DNA of 64,000 nt from an uncultured Acidobacteriota bacterium. GTDB lineage: Bacteria; Acidobacteriota; UBA6911; CAINFC01. The position numbers were made by a program, and so were the translations under genes. The stretch lies in NCBI GenBank assembly GCA_903847975.1, contig CAINFC010000230.1:1-64000 (forward strand), read 5' to 3'. The first letter of the stretch is position 1. Each line of letters starts with the position of its first letter. The notes under the pieces were generated by a model. The model did no database searches, was not told where the DNA came from, and saw only the letters and a program-made list of their open reading frames with translations. Of this stretch, positions 10,831-37,125 are shown one piece after another.

Positions 10831-13683
10831 ATGAAGGCAAAACACAGCAGAAAACAAAGCCTCTACCCGCGCCGGAGCATCCTGTTCGTACTGCTTTTCG
10901 CTTTCCGGGCGGCGACCGCGCAACCGCCGGATCCGGCCCCGCTGTCGATTCACGCCCTGGAATCGGCCCTGCACCGGGATGTGGTCCTTTCCCCGCGGCC
11001 GGGGAGGCAGGAACTATCGCCTCTTGCCCCGCGGGAAGCAGCCATCCGGACGCACACCGTGTTCGGGTTTTATCCCTACTGGGCTGCGGATTTTTCCCAG
11101 GTGCGGTTTGCCGACCTGACCCACCTGGCGGTCTTTTCCGTCGAAACCAACGGCTCCGGGCAGCTGGTAAACCTGCGCGGCTGGCCCAACGGCCCGCTGA
11201 TCGAAAAAGCCCACCAGAACGGAGTTCGGGTGGTGCTGGTGTGCACCCTGTTCGACGCCGCCCAGATCCAGAGCCTGCTTTCCTCCTCTTCCGCCCGGAC
11301 GGCGCTAATCGCCAACCTTCGCGACCAGGTTCTGCGGGGCGGAGCCGACGGGGTGAACATCGATTTCGAAGGGGTGCCCGGCGCGCAGAAAGCCAACCTG
11401 GTCGGCTTCATGAGCGAACTGGCGGCGGTCATAAGGGCGGCAGTCCCGGAGGCCCACATCTCCATCGACACCCCGGCCGTCGACTGGTCCAATGCCTATG
11501 ACTACCTGGCCCTGGCCCAGATCTGCGACGCGCTGATGATCATGGCCTACGACTACCACTACCGGGGATCGGCCGAACCCGGACCGGTGGCCCCGCTGTC
11601 TCCCAGCCCGGTGCTGGGCAGCCTCTGCGTCCGCTCCACCCTGTCCGCTTATCTGGCCCGGGTCGGGACGGCACTCAGCCGGAAGCTGATTCTGGGGGTT
11701 CCCTACTACGGCTACGATTGGCCCGCGGAAAGCGAAGCGCTCAACGCCCGGGCCCTGGGGAGCGCCGTCGCCAAATACTACAACGTGGCCTCGAAAGAAG
11801 CCGTTCTTTACGGCCGCCGCTGGGAAAGCCTTTCCGCGGTCCCCTGGTATGCCTACCGCACGACCCAGACCCACCAGGTCTGGTACGACGACCCGGAGAG
11901 CCTGGCGCGCAAATACGACCTTGTTTTCCAGCAAAACCTCCAGGGAATCGGCATCTGGGCCCTGACCTACGACAGCAACACCACCGAACTCTGGTCGCTG
12001 CTGGAAGAAACCTTCCTGCCCACCTCCCTGCCGGAGGCGCCTGAACTGGACGTCCCGGCGGTTTTTTTCGATACCCGCGGACTGCCGGCGGCCCTGCGGG
12101 CGCGCGGCTCCGTCGCCGCCGCCAGCTTTGAAATCTGCGTGGGAACCAAAGCCGGCGAGAAGGACATCGCCGATTTCCGGAACGTGGGACTCGGGCCGCA
12201 GCTGTTTTTGCAGGGCCCGACGCTCTCTTCCGGGAAAACGTACTACCTTACGGCCCGCAGCCTGGATCGCCGCGGCGTGGCCGGCCCTGCCGGATCTTCC
12301 GTCGCAGTGCGCCTCGACGCCACCCTGGCCGCAGAGAAAAAGGTCCTCCCGGGCTGGACTTCCACCCAGGAAGCCTTTACCGGCCTGGCAGCGGTGAACC
12401 GCACCGCGGACAACCAGGCGATCCTGGGGCGGGTGCGGAGTGCCGAGGGAGACAGAGAGGTGCTCTTTTCCTGGGTGCTCCCTCCGGGCCGCCAGCAGGC
12501 CCATGTGCTCAGCGAAACGGCATGGTTCGGGGGAGAAACCTCGGGTAAGGAAGGCTGGCTGGAAATTGCCCATCTGCCGGATTGCTTCCGTTCTCTTTTC
12601 CTCACCGGCGACACGGAGGCTTCCCGCTTCCTGGACGGAGGACCGTTGCAGGAAGCAGCCGCGGATTTGGTTTTTCCCGAACTCGACGGAGGAAGCGCCC
12701 TGCTGCACCTGGCCAATCCGAACCGGGAGGCGGCGACACTCCGCATGGTTCTGGAAAAGCCGGACGGGCTCCAGTCCGCAGCCATCCGGACGCTCTCAGG
12801 CGGGGAGCTGCTGACCGTCCGGGTTGCCGACCTGTTCCCGGAGCTGTCGGGCTCCCCGGGGGCTGCGCCCGGCGGGGCGTCCGTCCTGGGCGTGCCTTTC
12901 CTGCGGATCGCCGCCCGTCCGGCGGTGGCCGGCTCGATCACGCTGCGCCGCCAGCAGGACACCGCCGAGCTGTTTCCTGCCGACCCGGGCCGGGCGATTC
13001 TGCGCTCCGGAGTTTTTTCCTATGTACCCGCAGGAAGCGGTTACTGCGGCCTATCGTCCCTGGTTAATCCCGGCAGCACGGCTCTGACCGTCGAAATTTC
13101 CCGGGCAACAGGTGCGCCGGCACCCTCCATTCTCTGGAAGATTCCGCCCAATACGGGAGTCCGGGCCGATCTGACCGCCCTGTTCCCTCCCGGGACGGAC
13201 GAATCGGCGGCCATTGCTTTGCGCGTGACCCAGGGCGACGGCCTGATCGGCAATCTCCTGATCCTCAGCCAGGACGGCCGGCGGATGACCGCGTTGCCGC
13301 TCGAACCCGGGCCTTCCAGCCATTTTCTTTTCCCGCACCTCGCGCAGTCGCAGGGCTTCTGGACCGGGGTCAGCCTGGCCAACCCGGAAAAGGAACCCGT
13401 TGAAACCGTGCTGGAAGCGTTCGACGGCGGCGGCCTTTCCCTGGGAAAAGCGAGTCAGGCCCTGAATCCGGGCGAGCGGAAGACCGGCCTGGTCCATCAA
13501 TGGATCAAGGCCTCGGCGGGAATCTCCTCGGGACGGCTGGAAATCCGCGCCAGCCGGCCGTTCCTGGCAGCAGAAATTTTCGGATCGGACAGCCTCTCCT
13601 TTATCGCCGCGGTGGCCGGACGCGAGGAATCCGGACAGGCTAAGCTCGCAGCGCCCTTGCCAGCAGACGGCAGTTTTCCCTGA
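10831..13683 (+). CDS. Secreted GH18-like glycoside hydrolase with beta-sandwich tail
   Basis: A 950-residue exported protein. A basic N-terminus and hydrophobic stretch (SILFVLLFAFRAATA, to residue 30) form the signal peptide. Residues ~75-400 are a GH18 TIM barrel of the spore-peptidoglycan-hydrolase/chitinase kind: FGFYPYW opening strand, the catalytic DGVNIDFE (173-180, with E180 as the expected acid), and IMAYDYHY (237-244) on strand 6. GH18 enzymes cleave beta-1,4 bonds next to N-acetylglucosamine. Residues ~420-940 are several beta-sandwich-like modules with repeated LxNPxxxxxTVxLE motifs, probably for adhesion or substrate binding. The ATG has no good ribosome site. The 3' end overlaps the convergent gene by 44 bases. 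Confidence 0.85.
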   Translation: MKAKHSRKQSLYPRRSILFVLLFAFRAATAQPPDPAPLSIHALESALHRDVVLSPRPGRQELSPLAPREAAIRTHTVFGFYPYWAADFSQVRFADLTHLAVFSVETNGSGQLVNLRGWPNGPLIEKAHQNGVRVVLVCTLFDAAQIQSLLSSSSARTALIANLRDQVLRGGADGVNIDFEGVPGAQKANLVGFMSELAAVIRAAVPEAHISIDTPAVDWSNAYDYLALAQICDALMIMAYDYHYRGSAEPGPVAPLSPSPVLGSLCVRSTLSAYLARVGTALSRKLILGVPYYGYDWPAESEALNARALGSAVAKYYNVASKEAVLYGRRWESLSAVPWYAYRTTQTHQVWYDDPESLARKYDLVFQQNLQGIGIWALTYDSNTTELWSLLEETFLPTSLPEAPELDVPAVFFDTRGLPAALRARGSVAAASFEICVGTKAGEKDIADFRNVGLGPQLFLQGPTLSSGKTYYLTARSLDRRGVAGPAGSSVAVRLDATLAAEKKVLPGWTSTQEAFTGLAAVNRTADNQAILGRVRSAEGDREVLFSWVLPPGRQQAHVLSETAWFGGETSGKEGWLEIAHLPDCFRSLFLTGDTEASRFLDGGPLQEAAADLVFPELDGGSALLHLANPNREAATLRMVLEKPDGLQSAAIRTLSGGELLTVRVADLFPELSGSPGAAPGGASVLGVPFLRIAARPAVAGSITLRRQQDTAELFPADPGRAILRSGVFSYVPAGSGYCGLSSLVNPGSTALTVEISRATGAPAPSILWKIPPNTGVRADLTALFPPGTDESAAIALRVTQGDGLIGNLLILSQDGRRMTALPLEPGPSSHFLFPHLAQSQGFWTGVSLANPEKEPVETVLEAFDGGGLSLGKASQALNPGERKTGLVHQWIKASAGISSGRLEIRASRPFLAAEIFGSDSLSFIAAVAGREESGQAKLAAPLPADGSFP

Positions 13684-19841: not shown

Positions 19842-19870
19842 TTGACAACTCAAAAAAAACAAGCTATGAT
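19842..19870 (+). promoter_or_regulatory. Strong sigma70-type promoter
   Basis: TTGACA at 19842-19847, exactly 17 bases, TATGAT at 19865-19870, in an A-rich context. Transcription would start near 19877, leaving a ~68-base A/T-rich leader ending in AAAGGAG before the ATG at 19945. Together with the clean terminator after the gene this marks a probably highly expressed single-gene unit. Confidence 0.75.
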
Positions 19871-19944
19871 CATGTTATAAACGCAATAAATATTACTTCT
19901 TAAGAGAATAGCAAAGCAAAATATATTCCTTTAAAGGAGAAAAA

Positions 19945-21342
19945 ATGAAACCCAAAAACTTTCCCTTGGTTACGCTTCTGCTTTTGCTTTTTGCCAGTTT
20001 GAGCGTTTGGGCTCAGCTGGGGGACACGGATGTGTCATCTTTTACTGTCCAGAATCTTTCCGGCTCGACGGCCACGATTGACGTCACTTTTTACGCGGAA
20101 AACGGTACGTCATACCATCCATCCTTTTTGGATGCCGCAAACACTGTGGCTAACCCTATTTCTTTAGCCAACGGATTGTCGAAGCAAATTAATGTTTCGC
20201 AGATTAGCACCAGTTCTCTTCCTGCTGGCCGTTACGCTGTTGTGCTTTCCTCCGATGTGCAAATTTTTGCACAAGCCGGACTTGGGGGGGACACTGCAAC
20301 CTTGCGGTTCAGTGGTGCCTATATCGGGTTTTCCTCAGGAGCAACTACGGTATATCTTCCTTCCGTAGCCTACAACTACTATGGCTGGTACAGCATGGTC
20401 ACTGTCCAGAATATTGGCTCTTCCGCAACTAAAGTCACCGCCACTTTCACTTGTGCTAGCGGGACTACAGGTACATTGGAGTTGGCATCCCTTCCGGCAA
20501 ACTCTTCCGTAACTTGGCCGTTTAAGACCACAACGCCAACCGGTTTTACTGCAGGAAGCACTCAGTGCGACGGATCCGCGAAGATTGAATCTACCGGTAT
20601 CGGAAGCAATGCGGCACAGCCGATTGTGGTAATCAACAACCAGAACCAACCGGGTACCGGAGCTACCAATTCCTTCGAAGGCTCTTCCACCGGAGCTACA
20701 AAACTTTATGTAACCAGCCTGAGCAACAATTTTTACGGATGGAGCTCCGCCTTGACGATCCGGAAACTCCTCGCCGGAAACACTACTGTGACAGTGGATT
20801 ACAGCGGCGCCTGGCCAAACAGCACCTGCAATCTTACAGATGCGGTGCCGTCTTGTAAGCTAGTCATGCCGGCAATCCAGCCAACAACCGGACGTTATTC
20901 CGCCGTTCTGACCACCAATAACAGCTATCCTCTCTTGGCCATCATCGGGACGACTAACGGAGGTCTTTCCGGAGCCGTTCGGGCTATCGACAGCAGCACA
21001 GCAACCAATACGGTAGCGGCTCCCAATGTGGCCAAGAGTTACTATGGTTGGGGTTCCGCAATCACCTGCCAGAACGTGAGCACGACTCCGACCACGCTGC
21101 ACGTCGAATACGCTGGATACGCAGCCAACGCCTACAATACGGCTACCACCTTGAATGAGGGGGAAAGCACCCAGATTGTGCTTTCCACGGAGAGCTTCCT
21201 GCCGGCATCCGGCTGGCAGGGCGGAGTCACGGTTACAGCCAATGCCGCAGGCGCCTTAATTGGCTGCGTCGTGGGCAACACCAACTCCGGAAGTGCCAAG
21301 GCGGGTGACTGGACCGTCTCCTACAACGCATTTAACAAATAG
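19945..21342 (+). CDS. Exported YGW-repeat protein of unknown function
   Basis: A 465-residue exported protein. Signal peptide 1-24 ends SVWA before QLGD. The mature part is poor in charged residues and rich in Ser, Thr, Asn, Gly and Ala. Three units share the pattern (Y/F)YGWxSxxTxxN followed ~10 residues later by TxTxxY: residues 145-170, 263-286 and 366-389; a degenerate first unit lies at 30-50. This looks like tandem beta-sandwich domains of an S-layer, adhesin or extracellular scaffold. AAAGGAG lies six bases before the ATG. Strong promoter, strong ribosome site and terminator all suggest abundance. It borders the polysaccharide island and has the same lower GC content. No family name can be given. 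Confidence 0.85.
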   Translation: MKPKNFPLVTLLLLLFASLSVWAQLGDTDVSSFTVQNLSGSTATIDVTFYAENGTSYHPSFLDAANTVANPISLANGLSKQINVSQISTSSLPAGRYAVVLSSDVQIFAQAGLGGDTATLRFSGAYIGFSSGATTVYLPSVAYNYYGWYSMVTVQNIGSSATKVTATFTCASGTTGTLELASLPANSSVTWPFKTTTPTGFTAGSTQCDGSAKIESTGIGSNAAQPIVVINNQNQPGTGATNSFEGSSTGATKLYVTSLSNNFYGWSSALTIRKLLAGNTTVTVDYSGAWPNSTCNLTDAVPSCKLVMPAIQPTTGRYSAVLTTNNSYPLLAIIGTTNGGLSGAVRAIDSSTATNTVAAPNVAKSYYGWGSAITCQNVSTTPTTLHVEYAGYAANAYNTATTLNEGESTQIVLSTESFLPASGWQGGVTVTANAAGALIGCVVGNTNSGSAKAGDWTVSYNAFNK

Positions 21343-21365
21343 CGGCCAACCTTTCTTCTTCTCAT

Positions 21366-21400
21366 AAAAAAGCCTCCCGTTCTGGGAGGCTTTTTTATTT
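21366..21400. terminator. Bidirectional intrinsic terminator
   Basis: AGCCTCCC (21371-21378), loop GTTCT, GGGAGGCT (21384-21391), preceded by AAAAA and followed by TTTTTTATTTTTTT. The symmetric A- and T-tracts let it work for the YGW-repeat gene on the plus strand and for the methyltransferase gene ending at 21395 on the minus strand. Confidence 0.93.
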
Positions 21401-22390
21401 TTTTCTGGCAATAAAGGTTACATTGGTTGCCAATTTGAATCGGTCCATCATCCACAGAAACGGGAATAGCAGCAGCCTTGAAAAGAGCGAATCATATGTC
21501 CTTTTGAAAGTCTTGCTTAACCACGGCATGGACTGCTCCCAGGATTGTGACCAAAAATCCAGATTATGCCTCAATTGAGAGTAGCTTCCCGCAATGCATT
21601 TTTCCGTTAGGATTTGAAAGCCGTTTTTCACGAGGATATCACGGATTACTTTTCTGGGGAAAATGTGAAGGTGTCTTGGAAGGTCCCAACCGGACCAGAA
21701 GCGGCCGAATAAGCGGGCATCCCAGGCCTCGGGATTGGGCACCGTAAACGCTAGAATTCCTTTTCTTTTCAGGAAAAAACTGGCCCTCCGGATATCAGCC
21801 AATGGATCCTCTAGGTGCTCCAGAACACACCACATCACAACCGCATCCAAGGATTCCTCATGGTGACTTACGTCTTCAAATTTCCCGACATGAACCGGAA
21901 TTTCCAGCGTGTTGCGAGTATACCGGGCTGCGGCTTCATTCGGTTCCACCGCATAAAGGTCCCATCGCGAGAAGCGTTTTAATTCCCGTAAAAACGCTCC
22001 CGTTCCGCAACCGACTTCGAGCAATCGCCCGCCTGGTTGAAAGCGCTCAATCAACCTCCGCCTTTTCAAGTTCCCAAAGGACTTTATTTTCCCGTTCAAC
22101 CGGAAAAGCCATGCGGTCCACTTTTTATCGGAAAGCGGCCGACATGGATGCGTAAAACGATAGGAAATGTAGTCTTCCGGGTAGTAGGTCTTTAAGTCAG
22201 ACCACGGCATGAGAGGATTCTGAAGGTAGGTCCTGCAATTTTTGCATTGTACCAGGCAAAACTCTCCCGGGATTCTGTTGAGACGATCCGGTCCCTGAAA
22301 GACCAGGTCGAAATCCTGGGCCCGGCACCAGATACAGGGTCTGTATTTCCCAGGAAGATCCTTCCTAAACTGAGGCTCGGCCGTACTCAT
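21395..22390 (-). CDS. Zinc-ribbon SAM-dependent methyltransferase
   Basis: A 331-residue methyltransferase. Residues ~15-60 hold two cysteine pairs (CIWC and CKNC) forming a small zinc ribbon, followed by the Rossmann methyltransferase core: motif I LLEVGCGTGAFLRELKRF, acidic strand-2 end LYAVEPNEAA, and motif IV VVMWCVLEHLEDPL. This architecture (Methyltransf_23 with N-terminal ribbon) is common in polysaccharide clusters, where the enzymes methylate sugars. The ATG at 22390 overlaps the stop of the upstream gene (ATGA), pointing to translational coupling; the longer in-frame extension to 22456 would lie inside that gene. It ends directly at a bidirectional terminator, so it is the last gene of the minus-strand operon. 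Confidence 0.88.
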   Translation of the reverse strand: MSTAEPQFRKDLPGKYRPCIWCRAQDFDLVFQGPDRLNRIPGEFCLVQCKNCRTYLQNPLMPWSDLKTYYPEDYISYRFTHPCRPLSDKKWTAWLFRLNGKIKSFGNLKRRRLIERFQPGGRLLEVGCGTGAFLRELKRFSRWDLYAVEPNEAAARYTRNTLEIPVHVGKFEDVSHHEESLDAVVMWCVLEHLEDPLADIRRASFFLKRKGILAFTVPNPEAWDARLFGRFWSGWDLPRHLHIFPRKVIRDILVKNGFQILTEKCIAGSYSQLRHNLDFWSQSWEQSMPWLSKTFKRTYDSLFSRLLLFPFLWMMDRFKLATNVTFIARKK

Positions 22391-23379
22391 TTTCGTTTTA
22401 AAAACTGAGTCAGCCGAACCATTTGTGAAAGGGGAAAAACATCCTTGCGCAGCCAAACCAGCGAGCGACGAAAGTAGTAGGCGTACCGGATCACCCGGGA
22501 ATCTTCACGCAGAGACTGAATCATTCCTTCCGTGATGATTTGCCCATTGTGGCAATGGTCTCCCTGGTTGACCAGACGAATTTCATGGACATTTCCCGAG
22601 CCGGGAAGAGGTATGTAATGGAGCGTTTTCAATCGACTTCGATCGATAACCCAGATTCCGCCATCATCCCAAAAGCGGCGGTTTCGCGAGCTGTGTGCGG
22701 ATTTGCCCACGAAAATATATTGGTCAGAGGAGGATAATCCTCGGGTAAAAACCGGCTGCTGATCCGGCTGCCACAACAGCCGGTTTTGCTGCACCTCATG
22801 CAGCGTACCGGCTTTTGAATTACAGATTACCTGGCCGTATTCGCATTCCCAAACATTATGGGCCCAATTCGCTCCGCATTCACGGGAGCCAAGGACATTA
22901 AGTTCCGGCCAGGAAAGCTGGAAGATCCGAGAAGGTTTTTCGTAGTTGTGAGCGACTACCAGCACCTTGTCTTTCTCGCGGTGAACGCTGTTGAAGTGAT
23001 TCCCAAATCGTCCCTTGTTTTTATTATCAAACCTTAACTCATTCAGAAAAACATCTCTTTGAAAAACGGCATTTTCGTCAAATACCGATATGCAATTCCT
23101 GCCGGTGTTGGTCACCAGCAGAGAATCACCGACCCATTCAACCTGGTGAGGCTGGCTCAGCGTCCGTTCCGATTGCTGCCGTAGGCCTTTTCCGGAAAAT
23201 ATTTTTACCCTGCCGGCAGTGGTAGTCAACGCTATGGAATCGTTTTTTGAGCTAATCCCGTAATAATAGCCGTCTCCCAGGCGCACAATTTCAGTCTGCC
23301 CAGACATGGGATCAACCTTAAAAATGTGCAGGGGAGTGCTGACCAAAAGGTAGGTTTTAGGGAAACCGGAAGGCATCAT
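22387..23379 (-). CDS. Predicted beta-propeller protein in the polysaccharide cluster
   Basis: A 330-residue protein without signal peptide. The sequence is mostly short beta strands with repeating TLxxP, DDGGIWVIDRSRLKTL and HEIR(L)V segments, and several His-containing turns (QPHQVEWVGDSLLVTNTG, HNVWECEYG, HEIRLVNQGDHCHNG) spaced ~45-60 residues apart, as in six-bladed NHL/gluconolactonase-type propellers. I cannot name the family or a reaction. It is tightly packed between the flippase (no gap) and the methyltransferase (ATGA overlap), so it is probably translated with them and serves the same surface-glycan pathway, either binding sugar or acting as an epimerase-like or lactonase-like enzyme. 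Confidence 0.65.
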   Translation of the reverse strand: MMPSGFPKTYLLVSTPLHIFKVDPMSGQTEIVRLGDGYYYGISSKNDSIALTTTAGRVKIFSGKGLRQQSERTLSQPHQVEWVGDSLLVTNTGRNCISVFDENAVFQRDVFLNELRFDNKNKGRFGNHFNSVHREKDKVLVVAHNYEKPSRIFQLSWPELNVLGSRECGANWAHNVWECEYGQVICNSKAGTLHEVQQNRLLWQPDQQPVFTRGLSSSDQYIFVGKSAHSSRNRRFWDDGGIWVIDRSRLKTLHYIPLPGSGNVHEIRLVNQGDHCHNGQIITEGMIQSLREDSRVIRYAYYFRRSLVWLRKDVFPLSQMVRLTQFLKRK

Positions 23380-24882
23380 TTAGGCTACTCTTTCTTCCAA
23401 AGAATTTTGGATCTGGCGGATTTCATCCACTAAATCCGATTTTTTCAGCAAAGACAAGAAAAAAAAGCTATAAACACTCAAAACCACTGGCAAAACAAGC
23501 ATCATTCGGCTCAATTCGGACATCTGGGGAAGCATTGGGCTGATTCCTATCAAGGTGAAAAAGGTAACCGTGGCCGGTTTTAGAACCTTGAAAAAACTCC
23601 TGCCAAATGGATGGATTCGGAAATGAGTAAAAACTTGAATAAGTCGAAGCAGGTTGAAAAAAGACAAAGCAATCGCCGCGGCACATGCCGCTCCCAAGGC
23701 ACCAAAGCGAGGAATAAAATACCAATCCAGGCTCAATGAAAGAAGAATAGTAAGGAATATATCCAATAAATTCAAACGATTATGCCGGGTCATTATCAAG
23801 AATTGACCCGCCGGACCCGTGATCAGATAAGAAAGCTGAGCCATTGCCATAACGCGTAGAACCGCTGTCCCCTGCCGGTAAGCAGGAGCAAAAATGGCCA
23901 GGACCGTCGGCGCTTCAACGAAAACTATTATCCAAAAGGGAAGAGTAATCAGCAATTGGCAATACGTTACGACCTGATACAGTGAACCAAAGGAATCCAG
24001 ACGATTCCTTCCGAACAGCTCCGCGATATAGGGGGCCAACACAGTGGTAATGGCAATGAAAAAAACCAACAGGACGGAAGCAACTCTGTAGGAGATGGAA
24101 AATAGTCCGACTTCCTCACTGGTAGCAAGCCATCCAAGCATGAATATTTCCGTAAAATTGTTCATATTATTTAGCAGGGAGGCCCCTAACATCGGCCCGG
24201 AAAAGCCCCAAATATCCCTATAGATTCTTTTTCCAACAATATTTACCGGCCACTTTATCCCATGGGCAATAATAACTATAACCACTATGGCCCCCAGAAC
24301 AAAGCCGAGGTTGTAAGCCTTTCCGCCCAGCGCCAGGTCGCCCCCTGAGACCCGAATTGCGGTTGCAAAGGCTGCCAGCCGGATCGCGGGTACCAGCATC
24401 TGTTCCACCCATACGGCCGGCCACATTTTTTTATACCCCAGTAAAATGGCCGCCCCCAAACGTGTGAGGACAAAACAGGGCAATCCCAGCGTGAGCACCT
24501 GAAGAACAGGAATTAGCTCCGGCTTGTGAAAAACTCCGCGGGCAAGGCTGGGGATGCCCGCCAGAAATAAAGGCAGGGCTACGGCCCACCCTCCCACAGA
24601 AATAGCGAGGGCACTACGGATCGCTCCCGTTTCGCTCCCACGATCCTGCCTTGCGGAAAAAAAGGGGATATAGTAGACCATGGACCGGTCTAAGCCGAAG
24701 GTCAGGATTAATCCCAGGAACGCCGAAAAGGTGAGAGCCAGATTAAAAGTACCTACCTCAGCCAAAGAGCAGGTTCGCACCAGGACGACCTGCAGCAAAA
24801 TGTTGACACCGGTTTGAAACACTGTCCCAACAATTTGACTGCCGCTGCCTAAGGCAAGTTCCTTCAGACTTGTATTTTTCAA
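23380..24882 (-). CDS. Polysaccharide flippase (Wzx/MATE-like)
   Basis: A 500-residue integral membrane protein with about 12-14 hydrophobic segments, of the oligosaccharide flippase/polysaccharide biosynthesis family that moves undecaprenyl-linked glycans to the periplasmic side. The N-terminal GSGSQIVGTVFQTGVNILL and the charged RTCSLAEVGTFNLALTFSAF segment are typical, as is the second half with YRQGTAVLRVMAMAQLSYLI. The frame opens with TTG at 24882; no ATG occurs near the conserved N-terminus and no good ribosome site is visible, so the start is provisional. It lies 31 bases after the lipoprotein gene and directly abuts the propeller gene, within one minus-strand operon. Confidence 0.88.
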   Translation of the reverse strand: MKNTSLKELALGSGSQIVGTVFQTGVNILLQVVLVRTCSLAEVGTFNLALTFSAFLGLILTFGLDRSMVYYIPFFSARQDRGSETGAIRSALAISVGGWAVALPLFLAGIPSLARGVFHKPELIPVLQVLTLGLPCFVLTRLGAAILLGYKKMWPAVWVEQMLVPAIRLAAFATAIRVSGGDLALGGKAYNLGFVLGAIVVIVIIAHGIKWPVNIVGKRIYRDIWGFSGPMLGASLLNNMNNFTEIFMLGWLATSEEVGLFSISYRVASVLLVFFIAITTVLAPYIAELFGRNRLDSFGSLYQVVTYCQLLITLPFWIIVFVEAPTVLAIFAPAYRQGTAVLRVMAMAQLSYLITGPAGQFLIMTRHNRLNLLDIFLTILLSLSLDWYFIPRFGALGAACAAAIALSFFNLLRLIQVFTHFRIHPFGRSFFKVLKPATVTFFTLIGISPMLPQMSELSRMMLVLPVVLSVYSFFFLSLLKKSDLVDEIRQIQNSLEERVA

Positions 24883-24913
24883 AGCAATGGGAGCGCTCGG
24901 ACAACCGGATTTG

Positions 24914-25450
24914 TCAGGGAACCTGAATCGTATCCAATTCGATGGTTGTATTAAGGTCGGCCGCGGTGACGTTCACCAGTACATAATCGCTCTTTTTCCA
25001 TTTCCGGGCTGGCACCTGCTGTCCGGTCGTGGCAATGATCACCACGGCATACAGGCCAGGATCGACATTACTGAAGGAAAATTCCCCGATGGTTTCATCT
25101 ACTTCGGCCTGGATCGCATCTTCCGCCTTGAACTCCGGGACGGTGACTATATTCCTGGCTTGATCGAGACGGACGAGGTAAACGCCTTCCTTTTTAGGAG
25201 AGACCATCATGAAATTCGTGAGAAACAGAATTCCGTGAATGGTGGCCTTGCCGGGATTGGATTGCCTGAAGGTCCTCTTCCCTTCCGCGGCGACCGGTTT
25301 TGCGATTTCGGTTTCAATACTTGCCTCCGAAGCCGCGACCGGTACCTGGCTGACTGTCGGGGGGCCTACTTTCTTTTTCGAAGCCGCACTGCAACCCATG
25401 GTTACCAGAATGCTCGTCACAAGAAACAAAAATGCCCAATATTTTTTCAT
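24914..25450 (-). CDS. Small lipoprotein with a carboxypeptidase-regulatory-like fold
   Basis: A 178-residue exported lipoprotein: hydrophobic leader (FLFLVTSILVTMGC) with the lipobox cysteine at residue 20, a ~45-residue low-complexity linker, then a beta-rich domain containing ATIHGILFL...KKEGVYLVRLD and GEFSFSNVDPGLYAVVI. The pair 'TIxGxL...FxFxxVxPGxYxVVI' is the hallmark of the carboxypeptidase-D regulatory-like (transthyretin-type) beta-sandwich. Role unknown; its place between the fused flavoenzyme-glycosyltransferase gene (34 bases away) and the flippase suggests a periplasmic accessory of glycan assembly or display. Confidence 0.75.
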   Translation of the reverse strand: MKKYWAFLFLVTSILVTMGCSAASKKKVGPPTVSQVPVAASEASIETEIAKPVAAEGKRTFRQSNPGKATIHGILFLTNFMMVSPKKEGVYLVRLDQARNIVTVPEFKAEDAIQAEVDETIGEFSFSNVDPGLYAVVIIATTGQQVPARKWKKSDYVLVNVTAADLNTTIELDTIQVP

Positions 25451-25484
25451 TGTTTATTGCTCTTCCCGTTGTCCGTTCCCTGAA

Positions 25485-27683
25485 TTATTTGCCGGCAGAG
25501 TCCATTCCGGGAATTTGCCCCAAAGGTTTCTGCAGCCCCTCCATGATTCCAAGCCGAAAGTGCTTCCAGTACTTCCCGTTTCTTTTAAAAACAAATTCCC
25601 GCAGCACCATATAACCGATATGGATGGCCAGAGAAAGCAAAACAGGATGTCCGTGGCGACGATAAAAGCGAACGGAACTTGCCGCCCAGGTGCGCCAGAA
25701 AAGAGGAGAAGTCGGCCCCTGGGTGGTCCTGGAAATTTTATGCCACATTTTGGCTGTGGGTACATAGCGAATCAGCATTCCGCAGGCACGGATCCGCTCA
25801 GAGAAATCCCAGTCATCAAAAATAAAAAAGTATCCCGGATCAAATAACCCCGCCTTTTCGAATGCCGCCTTCCGGATGAGCAAGCCGCAGCTCGGCGCAT
25901 AATCCAGATCCCGAGGTTCGTCGGCCGCGTTTTTTCTACGGCTGGTCATTAATATCGCCGGCGGAAACCGACGGTACTCGCCCCCGCAGGACCAAACTTC
26001 ATTTTCCGTACCATAACAGAGAACCTTTGGCATCAGAATGCCTATCTGTGCATCCTGTTTGGCAATGTCGAGCAGGCAATCCAGCAGGTCCGGAGGGACC
26101 ACCGTGTCATTATTCAACATGAAGATAAAATCGGCGCCGTCATTCAGAGCATATTGAAAACCCACGTTATAGCCAGATGGAACGCCAAGATTTTGAAAAT
26201 TTTCGATCACCGTGACCTCGGGAAACTCCTTGCGTACAAGGTTGGAAGTCCCATCGGTGGATCCATTATCGACCAATACAATCCTGAACCGGGGATACGC
26301 CAGCCTGGCAACCGAGGCCAGGCATTCCTGGGTGTCTCCATAATTATTGAAGGAAAGGATTACAACGTGTATTAAAGGGAACGGTTGGCATTGGACCAGG
26401 GGAGCCGTCACTGGCATCATTACCTCCAGGGGCTGCATTCGGCCGGCAATCAGGGCCACCGTTTCTGCAGCCTGAGAAAAGTTGTCATCCACCTCCCGAT
26501 GGCGAAATTCTGAGGCCCGACCCAGAAGGTAGAGGTTATCATATCGGTTAAAAAAGCTCTGAGCGTCTGAGAGAACCTGGTTGTACTTTCGCTGATAAAC
26601 GGGATAGGCATGGTTCTCTCGGATCACCATCGAATCAAGTAATTTGCCTTCCGGAAGAAATTTCACCCGGACCAAATCCTCTATAACCTTGCCAACGGGA
26701 TCATGGTGTTTTTGCGTCACTTCTGCGCAAATTACAGTGCTGTCCGGAGGCTTATCCAGCTGACTCATGTTTTTAAATTCTACCAGGCGGTTGATGGCGA
26801 TATCATCGTCGATGAAATACACCCAGTGGTTATTCGAAACCATCGGCTGGCCAATGTGCAAATAAACGGCATCCACTTTTTGAAAGGCCAAGTCGACCGG
26901 GTGGCCCAGCAGTCGCCCGGTCACCGTAATGGGCAGCGTGGAAATGAAGTGATCGGCGGCGATTTGATGAACCTGACCCTGGCGTTCTACTTCCATGCTG
27001 AAGACCTTCGTGTTTTCATACGTCAGCCCACGCAGCCGGGAATTCAATAAAACCTTATCCTGGATCTCCGCATAGAGCCGGTCGACGATCGCCCCGTAAG
27101 CCCCGTGCAAGGGATAATAAAAATATTGAAATTTGTTTTTTGTGTTTTCAAAGAATTTATCCAGCGGATTGGCAAGGCGAACTTTTTGCTGCCCCCAGAG
27201 GGAGGAAACCTCCGCTCCGGATATGCCGAACAGCTTTTCGGTATAGGGACGAAAAAAAAGCTCATAAAGATACCGCCCATAGCGAGACACAACGAAATTT
27301 TCAAAATTATCCTGGGGAAGATGCCTGTTCCGGATGAGGAAGGATCCCAGCATTTGTAAATTCCGAGGAAGGCTCTGTCGTCGCACCAGCTCCAGCACGT
27401 CGAGGGGATCCCTCATCGGCTTTCCTTGGAGATACAGGGCGCTGCGTCGAATATGCCGCCCCATGGGCACCAGGTTGAGAAGTTGGGAAAGAATATGTTC
27501 ATCATGGGTAAAAAGGCGGTGGGCGGCAAAATCGCAGGGGAAACCATTCCACGGGAAGCTTCGGGCAAGACCGCCGACATAAGGCTGCTGCTCAATCACC
27601 ACAAAATCGATCCCGCGCTGCTTCAACAGGAATCCCGCGCTGATTCCGGCAATACCGGCCCCTAGAATTGCGACCTTAGACAT
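25485..27683 (-). CDS. Flavoenzyme (UGM/amine-oxidase-like) fused to GT2 glycosyltransferase
   Basis: A 732-residue two-domain protein. Residues 1-420 form an FAD-binding NAD(P)-binding-like oxidoreductase: dinucleotide fold VAILGAGIAGISAGFLLKQ (4-22), the VGGLARSF flavin segment (37-44), HRLFTHDEHI (55-64), and a C-terminal NLYLLGRASEFRHREVDDN (383-401) flavin cap, closest in style to UDP-galactopyranose mutase and related protoporphyrinogen-oxidase-like sugar enzymes. Residues ~437-690 are a GT2 glycosyltransferase: HVVILSFNNYGDTQECLASV, VDNGSTDGTS, and the FMLNNDT metal/nucleotide motif (521-527). Fusion suggests that the sugar is converted (for example to furanose form) and transferred by one polypeptide. 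Both halves look intact. AGGA precedes the ATG. Confidence 0.88.
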   Translation of the reverse strand: MSKVAILGAGIAGISAGFLLKQRGIDFVVIEQQPYVGGLARSFPWNGFPCDFAAHRLFTHDEHILSQLLNLVPMGRHIRRSALYLQGKPMRDPLDVLELVRRQSLPRNLQMLGSFLIRNRHLPQDNFENFVVSRYGRYLYELFFRPYTEKLFGISGAEVSSLWGQQKVRLANPLDKFFENTKNKFQYFYYPLHGAYGAIVDRLYAEIQDKVLLNSRLRGLTYENTKVFSMEVERQGQVHQIAADHFISTLPITVTGRLLGHPVDLAFQKVDAVYLHIGQPMVSNNHWVYFIDDDIAINRLVEFKNMSQLDKPPDSTVICAEVTQKHHDPVGKVIEDLVRVKFLPEGKLLDSMVIRENHAYPVYQRKYNQVLSDAQSFFNRYDNLYLLGRASEFRHREVDDNFSQAAETVALIAGRMQPLEVMMPVTAPLVQCQPFPLIHVVILSFNNYGDTQECLASVARLAYPRFRIVLVDNGSTDGTSNLVRKEFPEVTVIENFQNLGVPSGYNVGFQYALNDGADFIFMLNNDTVVPPDLLDCLLDIAKQDAQIGILMPKVLCYGTENEVWSCGGEYRRFPPAILMTSRRKNAADEPRDLDYAPSCGLLIRKAAFEKAGLFDPGYFFIFDDWDFSERIRACGMLIRYVPTAKMWHKISRTTQGPTSPLFWRTWAASSVRFYRRHGHPVLLSLAIHIGYMVLREFVFKRNGKYWKHFRLGIMEGLQKPLGQIPGMDSAGK

Positions 27684-27787
27684 ATTCCTGCTTCCCAGGA
27701 CTTAACCTAAAAATCATGGAGGCTATTATGGCTTGAAATTGGGAGATTGGCATCAAATCCTTTTTAATCCTCAAGGGAGCTTCCGGT

Positions 27788-28516
27788 TCATTGAGCTTTC
27801 CGGGCCTGACTGTTTTTTATCAAATGAGCCGCAACGATTCCCGGCTGATCATTCGCAAGGGAATCAAGCCGGGTAGAGTCCAAAAGGCTTTGATAAATAT
27901 CGTGGTCGGCTCGAATCGCGAAGTCAATCCAGGAAATCAGCTCGAAATGTGGGATCAGCTTCTGCTTTAACTGAGCTTCCCGTATCTCTACCGGTTCGGT
28001 AGGCCGGGGATCGTGATTTACCTCGAGAATGAGCAGCAGGTGAGCCGACGGTTTCAAGACGCGAATTATCTCTGAGAGGGCGGTATCGACATGATCGACA
28101 TGGTCCAGCGAATTAAAACTGGAAACAAGGTCGAAGGACGCGTCCCTAAACGGAATTCCTTCAACTAAACCATTGACATAGTTCATTTTATGAAGATGAA
28201 TACCGAGCTTCCAGTATCGGCACACCTCCGGGTCCAGTCCAATTCTCAACAACGCCGTATTCGCCCATTCCAGGCTGCCACAGGGCCCGCAGCCGATATC
28301 CAAAACTTTCTTATTTTCATACCAGCTGCTTTTAAGCCCAAAAAAGTCTGTAAAAAAATATGGAAAGTGTCCGTTATGCAGGCCTTTCTTTTTATAGAGC
28401 TTTCTCCAAAAACGATATTCCAAGTACCCTTTCAGCTTCCTTTGGAGCAACCAGGGGATAAAGGGCAAGACTGCGGCATAAATCGGTTTTACAAGGCTTT
28501 TGATCTTTGGGTGCAT
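27788..28516 (-). CDS. Class I SAM-dependent methyltransferase
   Basis: A 242-residue cytosolic methyltransferase of the Methyltransf_11 type. Motif I is KKVLDIGCGPCGSLEWA, the strand-2 acidic end is GLDPEVCRYW, and motif IV is FDLVSSFNSLDHVDHVDTAL, followed by RVLKPSAHLLLILEV. The substrate is probably a glycan or a glycolipid intermediate, given its neighbours. It is first in the minus-strand operon and is preceded by a good promoter at 28570-28597; the gene order then runs methyltransferase, fused flavoenzyme-GT2, lipoprotein, flippase, propeller, zinc-ribbon methyltransferase. The ATG lacks a clear ribosome site. Confidence 0.88.
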   Translation of the reverse strand: MHPKIKSLVKPIYAAVLPFIPWLLQRKLKGYLEYRFWRKLYKKKGLHNGHFPYFFTDFFGLKSSWYENKKVLDIGCGPCGSLEWANTALLRIGLDPEVCRYWKLGIHLHKMNYVNGLVEGIPFRDASFDLVSSFNSLDHVDHVDTALSEIIRVLKPSAHLLLILEVNHDPRPTEPVEIREAQLKQKLIPHFELISWIDFAIRADHDIYQSLLDSTRLDSLANDQPGIVAAHLIKNSQARKAQ

Positions 28517-28569
28517 GAATCGGAATATCAGCTGGTTGATGCAAAAATTATTTCTCGCTTTGCGTTAAT

Positions 28570-28597
28570 ATTTTAAAGAATATTCGAAAGTTGTCAA
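28570..28597 (-). promoter_or_regulatory. Sigma70-type promoter of the minus-strand polysaccharide operon
   Basis: Read on the minus strand: TTGACA (28597-28592), 16 bases, TAAAAT (28575-28570). Start of transcription would be near 28563, leaving a ~47-base leader before the ATG at 28516. The divergent GT4 gene begins 99 bases on the other side, so this 180-base gap is the control region between the two arms of the cluster. Confidence 0.65.
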
Positions 28598-28695
28598 CCC
28601 ACTCACCTGTTCCGCTTGAACATCACCTACGAAAATTCCTCTCCCTCTTTTTCATGAACTGGTGCAAAATTCAGGGACAACTTTGGAGAATCGTC

Positions 28696-29880
28696 ATGCG
28701 GATTTGCTATTTTGGCACCTATCGACCGGAATATATGCGCAATCAGATTAATATGGCCGCCCTGCAGAAAATGGGAGTGGATATCTTCAAATGCCATCAA
28801 CCGCTTTGGCGAACGGATATGGAACGGATACAGGTGGTAGTGGGCGGATGGAAAAACCCATTATTCTGGATGCGTTTATTCACCGTGTATGTCAGACTGA
28901 TCTGGCAGTATCTTCGGGTTCCCGATCACGACCTGGTAATCCTTGGATATCCGGGGCACCTGGATGTTTTTATAGCGAAAGCTCTGACTCTGCTTCGCCG
29001 CAAGCCCCTTGTCTGGGATGTAATTCTTTCGGTGGTTCAGGTTTCACGGGAAAGAGGATTAAACGATGTTGTTCCCTTTTCCCTGAAACTTCTCCGTTTC
29101 GTCGAGGGTATCGCCATACGACTCCCTGATTTATGCATCCTGGACACCCCTTTTTATGTCGAGTGGTTTCAAAACGAATATCATCTGAGTCCAACCGGGG
29201 TGCCTTTTGAATATCTCCTCATTGGCGCCGATGACCGTTTTTTCCGGGAAGCTGCGGCGCCGACAATGCCCGAACAACATTCTTCTTCCGGCCGTCTGCG
29301 GCGAGTCATTTACTCCGGATCCTTCATTCCGAATCATGGGGTGCCGACCATTCTTGAAGCGGCTCGTCTTTTAACGGATGATCCAACCATTCAATTTGTC
29401 TTCATTGGTTCAGGGATAGGGAAAAAGGCGGCCCAAGTCATGGCAGAAAGCTATCGACTTGACAATGTCACTTTCATTGATTGGCTGGACAAGTCGGAAT
29501 TGATCGAGCAATTGAGACAGGCCGATATCATCCTGGGCGCTTTTGGCAATACCACCCACTCGCGTATCACGATCCATAACAAGATTTTCGAAGGAATGGC
29601 ACTCGGAAAACCAGTATTAACGGGAGATTCTCCTGCCGTTCGAAAATTTCTGCTCCCGGATGACAACGTTGTGATTTGTCCACAGGCGGACCCGAAGGCA
29701 TTGGCCTGCTCGATTCGGCAGCTGATTGCCAACCCGGAGCGGAGATATAAGATCGGCCTTCGGGCTCGAAAGTCATTTCTTGAAAAATTTACCCTGGAAG
29801 AAGTCGGGAGGAATTACCTGGAAATTCTGAACAGGCACTTCCATTTGCCGATGAAGTCATACATTTCTGATAAGTTATGA
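28696..29880 (+). CDS. GT4-family glycosyltransferase
   Basis: A 394-residue GT-B glycosyltransferase. The N-terminal fold starts MRICYFGTYRPEYMRNQINM; the C-terminal nucleotide-sugar domain shows RRVIYSGSFIPNHGVPTILE (donor-phosphate loop), FIGSGIGKKAAQVM, and HNKIFEGMALGKPVLTGDSPA with the E in FEGMALG matching the conserved retaining-GT4 glutamate (E-x7-E region). The start at 28696 was chosen since GGAGA lies eight bases upstream and the Rossmann strand follows immediately; the frame is open further upstream from a TTG but that extension is unlike the family. Its last codon overlaps the next gene's ATG (ATGA), so it is coupled to the second GT4. Confidence 0.88.
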   Translation: MRICYFGTYRPEYMRNQINMAALQKMGVDIFKCHQPLWRTDMERIQVVVGGWKNPLFWMRLFTVYVRLIWQYLRVPDHDLVILGYPGHLDVFIAKALTLLRRKPLVWDVILSVVQVSRERGLNDVVPFSLKLLRFVEGIAIRLPDLCILDTPFYVEWFQNEYHLSPTGVPFEYLLIGADDRFFREAAAPTMPEQHSSSGRLRRVIYSGSFIPNHGVPTILEAARLLTDDPTIQFVFIGSGIGKKAAQVMAESYRLDNVTFIDWLDKSELIEQLRQADIILGAFGNTTHSRITIHNKIFEGMALGKPVLTGDSPAVRKFLLPDDNVVICPQADPKALACSIRQLIANPERRYKIGLRARKSFLEKFTLEEVGRNYLEILNRHFHLPMKSYISDKL

Positions 29881-31124
29881 GTCTTCGAATCCTGTACCTG
29901 CTGACCCAGGACCTGGAGAGTCCCAGCGGCCTGGGACGCTATGCCCCTTTAGCACAGGAACTGGCCCGTCGAGGCCACCGGGTAACCATCGCGACCTTAC
30001 ATTCCGATTACTCCCGTCTCAAAGAAAAAAAGTGCATTCAGGAAAGACTTGAAATTCGCTATGTTGCTCCTATGCACGTGAAAAAACAGCAGGACAGGAA
30101 AACATATTATTCCCCGTGGCAATTGCTGGGAGTGACTGCATGGGCATCGGTCGCACTCCTTCGTGCTGTATCCCAAATCCCCGCGGATATTATACATATC
30201 GGCAAGCCGCACCCGATGAATAGCCTTGCAGGTTTGCTGGGGAAGTTCCTGAAGGGCGCTTCAACGCAGATCTACCTGGACTGCGACGATTATGAAGCCG
30301 GAGTGGGCTTTTTCGCCAGGCCCTGGCAAAAAAAAGTCATTCAATTATTTGAAAATCGAGTACCTCTGCACGTCGACTATGTAACGACCCACACCGATTT
30401 CATGCAGCTCTTTCTGCAGCGTCTGGGGGTTTCCCAAAGCCGTATTTTTTATTTACCCAATGGAGTGGATCGCCGACGATTTCTTCCACCGGACCCTGAG
30501 GAAGTCGGGAAACTTAGGCATCAATTGGGATTAGCCGAACGGAAGGTGGTACTTTTTGTCGGAAGTCTAAGTCGTCCGGGGCATCCCGTGGATCTGCTTC
30601 TTCGCGCTTTTGCCAGGGTCCATTCCGCGCAACCCCAATCCGTCCTGTTGCTGGTGGGCGGCGGTGAAGATTTCCAGAACCTACGAGCCGAAATTGGCCG
30701 GACAGGTCTTGGTGCCAGCGTCATTATGGCAGGACGTGTACCCCCTTCCCAAACCGTGCTTTACTACCATCTCGGCGATGTATCTGTCGACCCGGTTCTC
30801 GAAGATGGTGCCGCTAAGGGACGCTGCCCTCTGAAACTATTCGAGAGTTGGGCCTGTTCCGTTCCCTATGTCAGTGCTGATGTTGGTGACCGCCGAAAGC
30901 TTCTGGGGGATCCGCCCTGCGGATTGCTCACGAAGCCTGCCGACCCATGTGCTTTGGCGGATGCCATTTTAAAGATTCTGCGCCATCCGGACCTTGGTCA
31001 AAATCTTTGTCAGCTGGGACGGAGACAAGTGGAATCATTCTACTGGGATCGGTTGGCAGAACAAATGGAGGCAATATATCAGAAGAACCAGCGGAGCCGT
31101 TTGGCAAGGGAACAGGGTTTCTAA
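29877..31124 (+). CDS. GT4-family glycosyltransferase
   Basis: A 415-residue retaining GT-B glycosyltransferase. N-terminal acceptor domain: LRILYLLTQDLESPSGLGRYAPLAQELARRGH with the glycine-rich SGLGRY turn typical of GT4. C-terminal donor domain: RKVVLFVGSLSRPGHPVDLLLRAFARV, LLLVGGGEDFQNL, and CPLKLFESWACSVPYVSADVGD where K and E of KLFES correspond to the nucleotide-sugar contacts. The ATG at 29877 overlaps the preceding stop (ATGA). Donor and acceptor are unknown. Second gene of the plus-strand arm of the polysaccharide island. Confidence 0.9.
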   Translation: MSLRILYLLTQDLESPSGLGRYAPLAQELARRGHRVTIATLHSDYSRLKEKKCIQERLEIRYVAPMHVKKQQDRKTYYSPWQLLGVTAWASVALLRAVSQIPADIIHIGKPHPMNSLAGLLGKFLKGASTQIYLDCDDYEAGVGFFARPWQKKVIQLFENRVPLHVDYVTTHTDFMQLFLQRLGVSQSRIFYLPNGVDRRRFLPPDPEEVGKLRHQLGLAERKVVLFVGSLSRPGHPVDLLLRAFARVHSAQPQSVLLLVGGGEDFQNLRAEIGRTGLGASVIMAGRVPPSQTVLYYHLGDVSVDPVLEDGAAKGRCPLKLFESWACSVPYVSADVGDRRKLLGDPPCGLLTKPADPCALADAILKILRHPDLGQNLCQLGRRQVESFYWDRLAEQMEAIYQKNQRSRLAREQGF

Positions 31125-31154
31125 CGAATTATGCAAATGACAGGAAGCGGACAC

Positions 31155-32744
31155 ATGGAAAGTCGTCCCAAACCCCCAACCCTGAAATTGGCGCAACTGG
31201 GTTTCATTTTCCTTTTGGGACTCCTTCTTCGAATCTGGGGCACTGACTTTTCTTTGCCCTATCTGCATCACCCCGATGAAGGAGCTGTGGTCATGCCCGC
31301 ACTGAGAGTCCTGGCGACAGGAGATTGTCGCCCCTTTCGCCTGGATTATGGTTCGATTTATATCTATAGTATCACGGCGCTATCCGTTCCCTACTATCTT
31401 TACGGCTATTGGCTTGGCTACTTTAAAAGCACAGCAGACATTCCTATTTTCACTTCCTTCAATGACGTCTGCCGATACCCTTTTCCGAAATTTTACCTTC
31501 TTCCGCGCCTATTGACCGCTATCATCGGCAGTCTGTCCATTCTGGTGGTTTTTTTACTTGCGCGGCGCATTACCTCCGAACAAGGGGCTTTGGCATCCAG
31601 TCTTTTCCTTGCCCTGGAACCGCTCCATGTGCGGAACTCCCATTTTGCCACGACGGATGTCCCGATGACATTTCTCGTGCTTTTAGCCATAAACAGGATG
31701 CTGGCCTTTCAAGAGAGCGGAAAAAGAGATGACTTCCTCTGGGCCGGATTCTTTTGCGGCCTTGCCGCTTCCACCAAATTCACTGCCGGACTTTTGTGCC
31801 TTGGCCTTGTTTGGGCTCACATTTTCCGATCCCGGACGCCAAAGGATCTGATCGATAGAAGAATCATTCTCGGAGGGGTGGCAACAGCCGGTGCCTTTTT
31901 GCTGGGTACTCCCTATGCAATGGATTTTTCATATTTCCTGAATTGGCTTACCAGCAACTCAAATTATTATGCGAATGGCCTGGGGAAGATGGAGGAGCCG
32001 TCCTCCTTTCTCTATTACTGCAAAACGCTCTGGGATTCAAATGCTCTGCCTATTCTGACGGTTGCCATCCCCGGTGTTTATTCCTTGGCAGCCAAGTGAT
32101 GGAAAAAAGCCCTGCTGTTCCTTTTCTTTCCGGTCGCGCATCTTACGCTGTTTTCCCTCCAGGCGGCACATTATTCGAGACACCTGGTTCCCTTCGTGCC
32201 CTTTCTGGCTATCGGTGCGGGAGCAGGAATAATTCACGTAAAGGAGCAGTTTTCAAGACGGTTTTTGGTCCGAAAATCCTTGTTCGCCTGCTCTGCAGGC
32301 TTGGCGGTATTATTGCTTTCCTTGCCTTGGCTGGCAGGGTCTATTCAAACCAGCTTCCTTCTAGGTCGGGAGGATGTTCGAACGGTTGCCCTCAATTGGT
32401 ACCTGAAAACAATACCCCCCGGCCTGAAAACTGCATCGGATTGGATGGGGCCTTCTTTCAGCTGTATTCCAAATCAGATTTATCGAAGCTGGAATCCGGG
32501 GGAACATGATGCGCAATGGTATGTCGATAATGGTTTTTCTTACCTGGTTTTGAGTGAAGCTCTTGTGAAAGACCCGAACCGAACGATCCTGGCCGCTGAA
32601 AATTACCGTCAATTTTTCATCAAATTTGCCATCATGAAGGAATTTTCGGGACCCCAATTGGGCTTCGCCGATCGGAAAATATGGATTTTTCGTGTTCCAA
32701 GCCAGCTCGCCCCCACTAGCAGAAAAAACAGTCCGCTAGGGTAA
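31155..32744 (+). pseudogene. GT39-like membrane glycosyltransferase with one in-frame TGA
   Basis: A polyprenyl-phosphate-sugar:acceptor transferase of the GT39/ArnT-like superfamily, ~528 residues if read through. First helix LGFIFLLGLLLRIWGTDF is followed by the catalytic-loop HHPDEGAVV (the DE pair), then a run of transmembrane helices. A TGA at 32097-32099 (AAG TGA TGG) stops the frame after ~314 codons, but the same frame continues with WKKALLFLFFPVAHLTLF, more helices and a soluble C-terminal domain for another 215 codons to a TAG at 32742-32744. No frameshift is present. The likely lost residue is arginine (CGA). ATG 31155 follows AGGAAG by seven bases. The alternatives are a recent nonsense mutation, read-through, or a sequencing error. 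Confidence 0.78.
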
Positions 32745-34832: not shown

Positions 34833-34940
34833 GCGTGCGGATCCGGTGGGTTTCGCCAACCGGCCTGATGGCGGATATTGTAACCAGCGAGGCGCCGGAG
34901 GGAGGAAACCAGGTTCCATCGCCTCGCCGTCCCCAGGGTG

Positions 34941-37058: not shown

Positions 37059-37125
37059 GGAAATCCTCCTTAATTGCCGGTCTTCCTTCCCAGAATGATT
37101 CATCTTATGGATTCCTGATGCTTCG

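Follow-up and report, generated by a model that had tools for sequence, protein, structure and literature searches.

An exported four-unit protein beside an acidobacterial polysaccharide island, a divergent variant of a widespread tetrad family and candidate glycan binder

The window, the whole 64,000-nucleotide stretch of DNA analysed here from an uncultured Acidobacteriota bacterium, contains a gene for an exported-looking protein with recurring YGW motifs next to a set of polysaccharide genes. What kind of protein is this, and what might it do beside such an island? An earlier note on the sequence described a strongly expressed exported protein of unknown family, possibly a major surface-layer or sheath protein. 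The features that bear on these questions are collected in Table 1.

Table 1. Features of the exported-protein gene and its surroundings, in window coordinates
Feature	Position	Strand	Basis or remark
GH18 enzyme with canonical C-terminal tetrad of the same module	10831..13683	+	host-like GC3, 78%
Promoter-like TTGACA-17-TATGAT, 11/12 consensus bases	19842..19870	+	consensus match only
Ribosome-binding site AAAGGAG, 5 bases before ATG	19933..19939	+	read directly
Gene of the exported four-unit protein	19945..21342	+	ORF; 465 aa plus stop
Signal peptide, residues 1-23	19945..20013	+	cleavage after V-W-A, by eye
Unit D1: no strand 1, no YGW, hallmark asparagine kept (FTVQN)	20014..20343	+	
Unit D2: YGW at 20380-20388, hallmark asparagine kept, cysteines 170 and 208	20344..20694	+	
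Unit D3: YGW at 20734-20742, lysine for asparagine, cysteines 295 and 304	20695..21000	+	
Unit D4: YGW at 21043-21051, hallmark asparagine kept, cysteines 375 and 441	21001..21339	+	modelled beta-sandwich
Intrinsic terminator	21364..21398	+	shares bases with the stop codon of the convergent methyltransferase gene
Polysaccharide island, low GC3 (52-58%): methyltransferases, Wzx-like flippase, type 1 and type 2 glycosyltransferases, PMT_2-type glycosyltransferase	21395..32099		

The open reading frame is exactly where the earlier note had placed it, and the near-consensus promoter, the strong ribosome-binding site and the good terminator that it named were all found again. Sites as promoter-like as this one (11/12 consensus bases) occur four times in the window, both strands and the gene's own site counted. 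The terminator probably serves both this gene and the convergent methyltransferase gene. Strong expression, in contrast, finds no backing in codon usage: the codon adaptation index of the gene is 0.449 (reference tuf/fusA/rpsG/rpsL), and 55 of 500 random synonymous versions of similar GC3 reach it. The four upstream genes have indices of 0.63-0.70 and the island genes 0.40-0.51, with the exported-protein gene among the latter. Recent transfer would be another explanation for the low index.

The protein has a single hydrophobic segment (residues 8-26), which ends in V-W-A before a Q and is not followed by a lipobox cysteine. By eye, this N-terminus reads as an ordinary signal peptide, in agreement with the export proposed earlier, and what remains after its removal is four tandem units, D1-D4, and nothing else. 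There are three YGW motifs (residues 146, 264 and 367), against about 0.03 expected from the composition of the mature protein, which makes this roughly a 5-in-a-million event. The corresponding units D2, D3 and D4 resemble one another pairwise with z scores of 7.5, 6.2 and 10.9, and none of 500 shuffles reached the score of any pair, so the three YGW units of the earlier note stand; it overlooked a fourth. This unit, D1 (residues 24-133), has no YGW, resembles D2 (z 3.1) and D4 (z 3.9), shows no likeness to D3 in the shuffle comparison (z 0.1), and groups with D2-D4 in the unit tree (support 0.85). Since D1-D4 form a clade of their own, the origin of the tetrad probably lies in duplication within the lineage and not in enzyme-borne tetrads, a tentative reading of short and divergent sequences. 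We also considered whether a spare strand of D4 completes the strand that D1 lacks, and discarded the idea: D4 stops at its own last strand.

Searches with the complete protein returned no believable full-length relative in 60 relatives or 396 phylum genomes, none in phages, plasmids or viral contigs, and none among genome contigs by single-sequence or profile search. No Pfam or NCBIfam model exceeded its cut-off and the PDB sequences gave no convincing match; a clear enzyme-family match, which the earlier note had named as an outcome that would count against it, was found in none of the three. Discarded matches include one on the opposite strand of an RND-type pump (L003), broken frames in and beside unrelated ORFs (L008) and a short alignment (L002, 35% over 43 residues, E 0.18). 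An NCBIfam thioredoxin reductase (E 0.05) and a PDB chitinase (E 0.057) were set aside as chance or too weak.

A profile built from D2-D4 was more informative. It matched only itself in the 38 genomes of the class, and across the 396 phylum genomes it gave weak matches in six others. Five of these six (L013-L017) fall in long ORFs that look exported and contain two or four units apiece, QYGWRTKLTIRN-type sequences among them; the sixth (L018) is a short unrelated frame and was discarded. One match from the full-length search (L004) was retained, as the matched ORF bears such units. Two of the exported-looking ORFs (L015 and L016) have two units, the first with YGW itself, followed by a WD40-like propeller.

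Eight units from the L013-L017 and L004 ORFs were combined into a profile (A4) that contains no window sequence. The D2-D4 profile aligns with it at 95% in hhalign (E 2e-8). A4 alone finds 91 places in the own genome at E <= 1, among them D2 (E 2.4e-6) and the GH18 protein of the window, a result of incomplete independence as the A4 rows were picked through similarity to D2-D4. For this reason we iterated on 17 own-genome proteins with the exported tetrad protein left out, reaching a model of 63 units. D2 scores 25.8 bits against A4 (maximum in 2000 shuffles 8.6) and 15.0 bits against the 63-unit model (maximum in 2000 shuffles 9.3), while D4 and D1 alone, at 9.0 and 8.3 bits, are not above the shuffles of the latter (maximum 9.3). 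Taken together, D1-D4 align with the 63 units at an hhalign score of 25.8, against a column-shuffled maximum of 13.3 (n=30). The exported protein is therefore very probably a member, although a very divergent one, of the tetrad family of its class. The label of an unknown family no longer holds: profile comparisons place the unit in a widespread tetrad module, itself a relative of ASRT/TM1070, and the protein is a divergent stand-alone variant of a widespread, poorly modelled family.

The module is about 105 residues long and mostly C-terminal on secreted proteins of the own genome. By sequence reading its bearers include subtilases, a thermolysin-type protease, hydrolases and a metallophosphatase, and Pfam confirms a GH18 enzyme and a cohesin-bearing protein. 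Thirteen of the 17 proteins have four units, and the other four have 3, 3, 3 and 2. The hallmark is the asparagine that ends strand 2, present in 63/63 own-genome units and in three of the four units of the exported protein (D1, D2 and D4). At the position of the YGW tryptophan, 41 of the 63 units have an aromatic residue (Y, F or W), and thus YGW-x-S is this protein's form of a family-wide aromatic-x-[ST] signature. The gene of the cohesin-plus-tetrad secreted protein (4065-6455 of L086, own genome C204) is the immediate neighbour of the rpsL-rpsG-fusA-tuf cluster and has the same orientation.

A survey profile made of 18 of the 63 units detects the module at E <= 1e-5 in 92 of the 396 phylum genomes, including 38/38 of the class. 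The nearest Pfam model is DUF5719 (PF18986), and most units have no above-cut-off Pfam model: two of the 18 units match DUF5719 below the cut-off (best E 0.0015), the model exceeds its cut-off at a few of 42 places in the own genome, and on the exported-protein gene it reaches E 0.3 only. Two canonical module relatives matched nothing in the viral contigs. In another genome (G151), an ORF that starts at base 1 (L094) encodes WxFAEGxTxxxFQTFLxxxNP repeats and is touched weakly by both PF07100 and the unit model; it might connect the tetrad module with DUF5719-like repeats. The portions available to us of the literature on YGW repeats, DUF5719, the Acidobacteria surface layer and Ig-like secreted proteins contain nothing on the tetrad module.

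The earlier note had proposed structure prediction of one repeat. AlphaFold, run on D4 with the other three units as alignment (four sequences), gives a beta-sandwich with pLDDT 68 and pTM 0.64; the full-length model has a pLDDT of 38 and is uninformative. Foldseek returned no match to the D4 model at E <= 0.001, nor did the viral structure library at the same threshold. In VIA-align the best solved match is TM1070 (1nc7; Z 11.1, rmsd 3.2, 103 residues), followed by ASRT (2ii7; Z 9.7, rmsd 2.8, 92 residues) and by further ASRT entries. The next different fold is a carbohydrate-binding module at Z 7.5, and the modules of this kind in the list (Z <= 7.5) were set aside, as they may reflect a common arrangement only. 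On this model the units are likely to adopt a TM1070-type fold.

The link to ASRT at the sequence level runs through the class module. In hhalign, the 63 units score 30.5 against four ASRT orthologues (shuffled maximum 11.7, n=30), and D1-D4 compared directly with the ASRT sequences score 12.3, within the shuffles (maximum 13.3). When the unit model is applied to four ASRT loci, the ASRT gene is the best match each time (E 3e-4, 7e-4, 0.05 and 0.35). The Pfam model PF07100 finds 11 places in 297 genomes. Four are over the cut-off and are true ASRT genes; of the seven below it, five coincide with units, one lies in a locus that has units elsewhere (L098) and one in a locus that has none (L097). 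The Pfam scan of the exported protein gave no PF07100 match at E <= 10, and the own genome has none at E <= 0.01. Against the PDB sequences, A4 finds ASRT at E 0.42 only, and ASRT is not among the matches of profiles A2, A9 and A1. Those profiles produced other candidates that were rejected: HemS with A2 (E 0.018), taken as chance because no other result backs it, a copper nitrite reductase with A9 (E 0.17), likewise taken as chance, and a VP4 fragment, the sole match of A1 (E 0.29).

TM1070 and ASRT are treated as one family in the paper that defined the ASRAH superfamily (De Souza, Iyer and Aravind 2009, PMC2739507). In the sections available to us, that paper describes three families, and the expansion of the tetrad module is not among their contents; its marks of the superfamily are a tryptophan in strand 1, an asparagine ending strand 2, and clefts in the TM1070 tetramer. 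Extracellular versions are described there as dyads or tetrads, and sugar binding is argued from their contexts, for example actinobacterial surface lipoproteins beside a glycosyltransferase. Among the listed papers that use the name ASRAH, it is apparently the only one on the domain, judged from titles and abstract openings.

In the exported protein, strand 1 of D2-D4 reads TVYLP, KLYVT and TVAAP, without the ASRAH tryptophan, and D1 has no strand 1; the tryptophan of YGW stands at the start of strand 2. The asparagine that ends strand 2 is found in three of four units, and the units form a tandem tetrad. In place of the ASRT-like SHE-x-x-C-x-x-N of strand 2, D2 has WYSMVTVQN and D4 has WGSAITCQN, neither with the histidine nor with a cysteine in register. 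Because the asparagine and the tetrad are present and the tryptophan is absent, we do not file the protein under ASRAH as published. The tetrad family of the class, to which we assign it, is related to the superfamily, and we think that the exported protein works like one of the superfamily's members.

The island begins directly downstream, as the earlier note had recognized in placing the gene at its border. GC3 is 57.4% in the exported-protein gene, 52.2-57.9% in seven island genes and 77.0-80.9% in the four upstream genes, and by composition and position the gene belongs with the island, although it is convergent to the first island gene, a methyltransferase, and has its own promoter and terminator. 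Between methyltransferase and flippase the island encodes a DUF4915-like protein that matches below threshold (22387-23379). At its far side, two large adjoining genes (32736-37103) encode a BNR/sortilin-type propeller protein and a PKD-OmpA protein. The gene with the PMT_2/PMT match (31131-32099) ends at an in-frame TGA (32097-32099), after which the same frame is open for about 210 codons, to about 32744; either the gene is broken or was recently lost, or the sequence contains an error.

The family relation is fairly secure and the fold likely, and from them we infer a function. After export and cleavage of the signal peptide, four beta-sandwich units would remain. TM1070 is a homotetramer with one cleft per subunit, so that the tandem tetrad would probably fold into a one-chain pseudo-tetramer. 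Its clefts may hold sugar, in which case the protein would act outside the cytoplasm as a multivalent, non-catalytic sugar or glycan binder; we consider the chances of sugar or glycan binding to be about even. The most likely partner would be the glycan made by the adjoining island, because the gene shares its composition, although as an identification of the ligand this is doubtful. To our knowledge, no bound sugar has been described for any tandem extracellular ASRAH version. An exported, stand-alone tetrad that binds sugars or glycans without catalysis and coats or retains the island glycan at the cell surface is our best explanation, and one that may well be correct.

This explanation competes with a structural role close to the one first suggested, in which the units would be spacers packed side by side or end to end in a surface layer or sheath, with no ligand. 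The protein is stand-alone, exported, made of repeats alone, rich in S, T and N and low in charge (7.7% DEKR, against a mean of 14.1% in the own-genome module units), and the cysteine pairs of D2, D3 and D4 could form one disulphide per unit, all of which would suit a coat. Against this, codon usage bears no mark of abundance, no surface-layer anchoring domain is matched in Pfam or NCBIfam, other copies of the module in this genome are accessory to secreted enzymes, and no result points to a surface layer or sheath. A ligand-free coat is therefore unlikely. The same composition allows another reading, namely a carrier glycoprotein that is decorated by the glycosyltransferases of the island, one of them PMT_2-type, and displays the glycan covalently. 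S and T make up 26.2% of the protein, compared with 17.3% (sd 3.6) in the own-genome module units, there are nine N-x-S/T sites, and the gene has its composition in common with the island that carries the PMT_2/PMT match. However, exported beta proteins are commonly S/T-rich, and the PMT_2-type gene is broken by its in-frame TGA, which makes a carrier role quite improbable. A generic Ig-like adhesion module of CARDB type, with protein ligands instead of sugar, is very improbable, since the CARDB match (residues 152-206, E 0.014), itself chance or too weak, has 16.1 bits against a Pfam cut-off of 22.7 (PF07705) and covers a strand pair of a kind common to many beta-sandwiches, and the profile evidence for the tetrad module is much stronger.

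If the glycan-binding explanation is preferred, its consequences extend beyond this locus. What looked like an orphan gene can now be tested as a lectin-like candidate, for which a fold and an adjoining source of the ligand are likely. The class tetrad module is itself thought to bind sugars, and a large share of the secreted enzymes of the class may bear an unannotated sugar-binding tail, because the module is present in 38/38 class and 92/396 phylum genomes and is mostly below cut-off in Pfam. More speculatively, a large and mostly unmodelled ASRT-related branch might be the general glycan-binding tetrad of these enzymes, and the gene described here an island-borne, free-standing version that binds the polysaccharide of its own island; we hold this broader picture to be rather improbable. 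If it is true, every such glycan island brings its own dedicated surface lectin.

Three known systems can be set beside the protein. ASRT and TM1070 (PF07100; 2ii7, 1nc7) provide the best fold matches of the D4 model and share the conserved asparagine ending strand 2, but they are cytosolic, single-domain homotetramers with a strand-1 tryptophan and a histidine/cysteine cleft, whereas the exported protein consists of four tandem units and has neither. The extracellular ASRAH versions, compared here by their description in the available parts of PMC2739507 (amidase tetrads of Chloroflexi and actinobacterial lipoproteins), share export, the arrangement in dyads or tetrads and adjoining glycosyltransferases; the exported protein differs in having no amidase domain, lipobox, WhiB linkage or strand-1 tryptophan. 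The tetrad module of the class agrees in unit length, strand pattern, the aromatic-x-[ST]...N signature, the number of four units and export. It is usually found on enzymes, whereas the exported protein stands alone, with units that form their own clade, are poorer in charged residues and, in three cases, carry YGW and two cysteines each.
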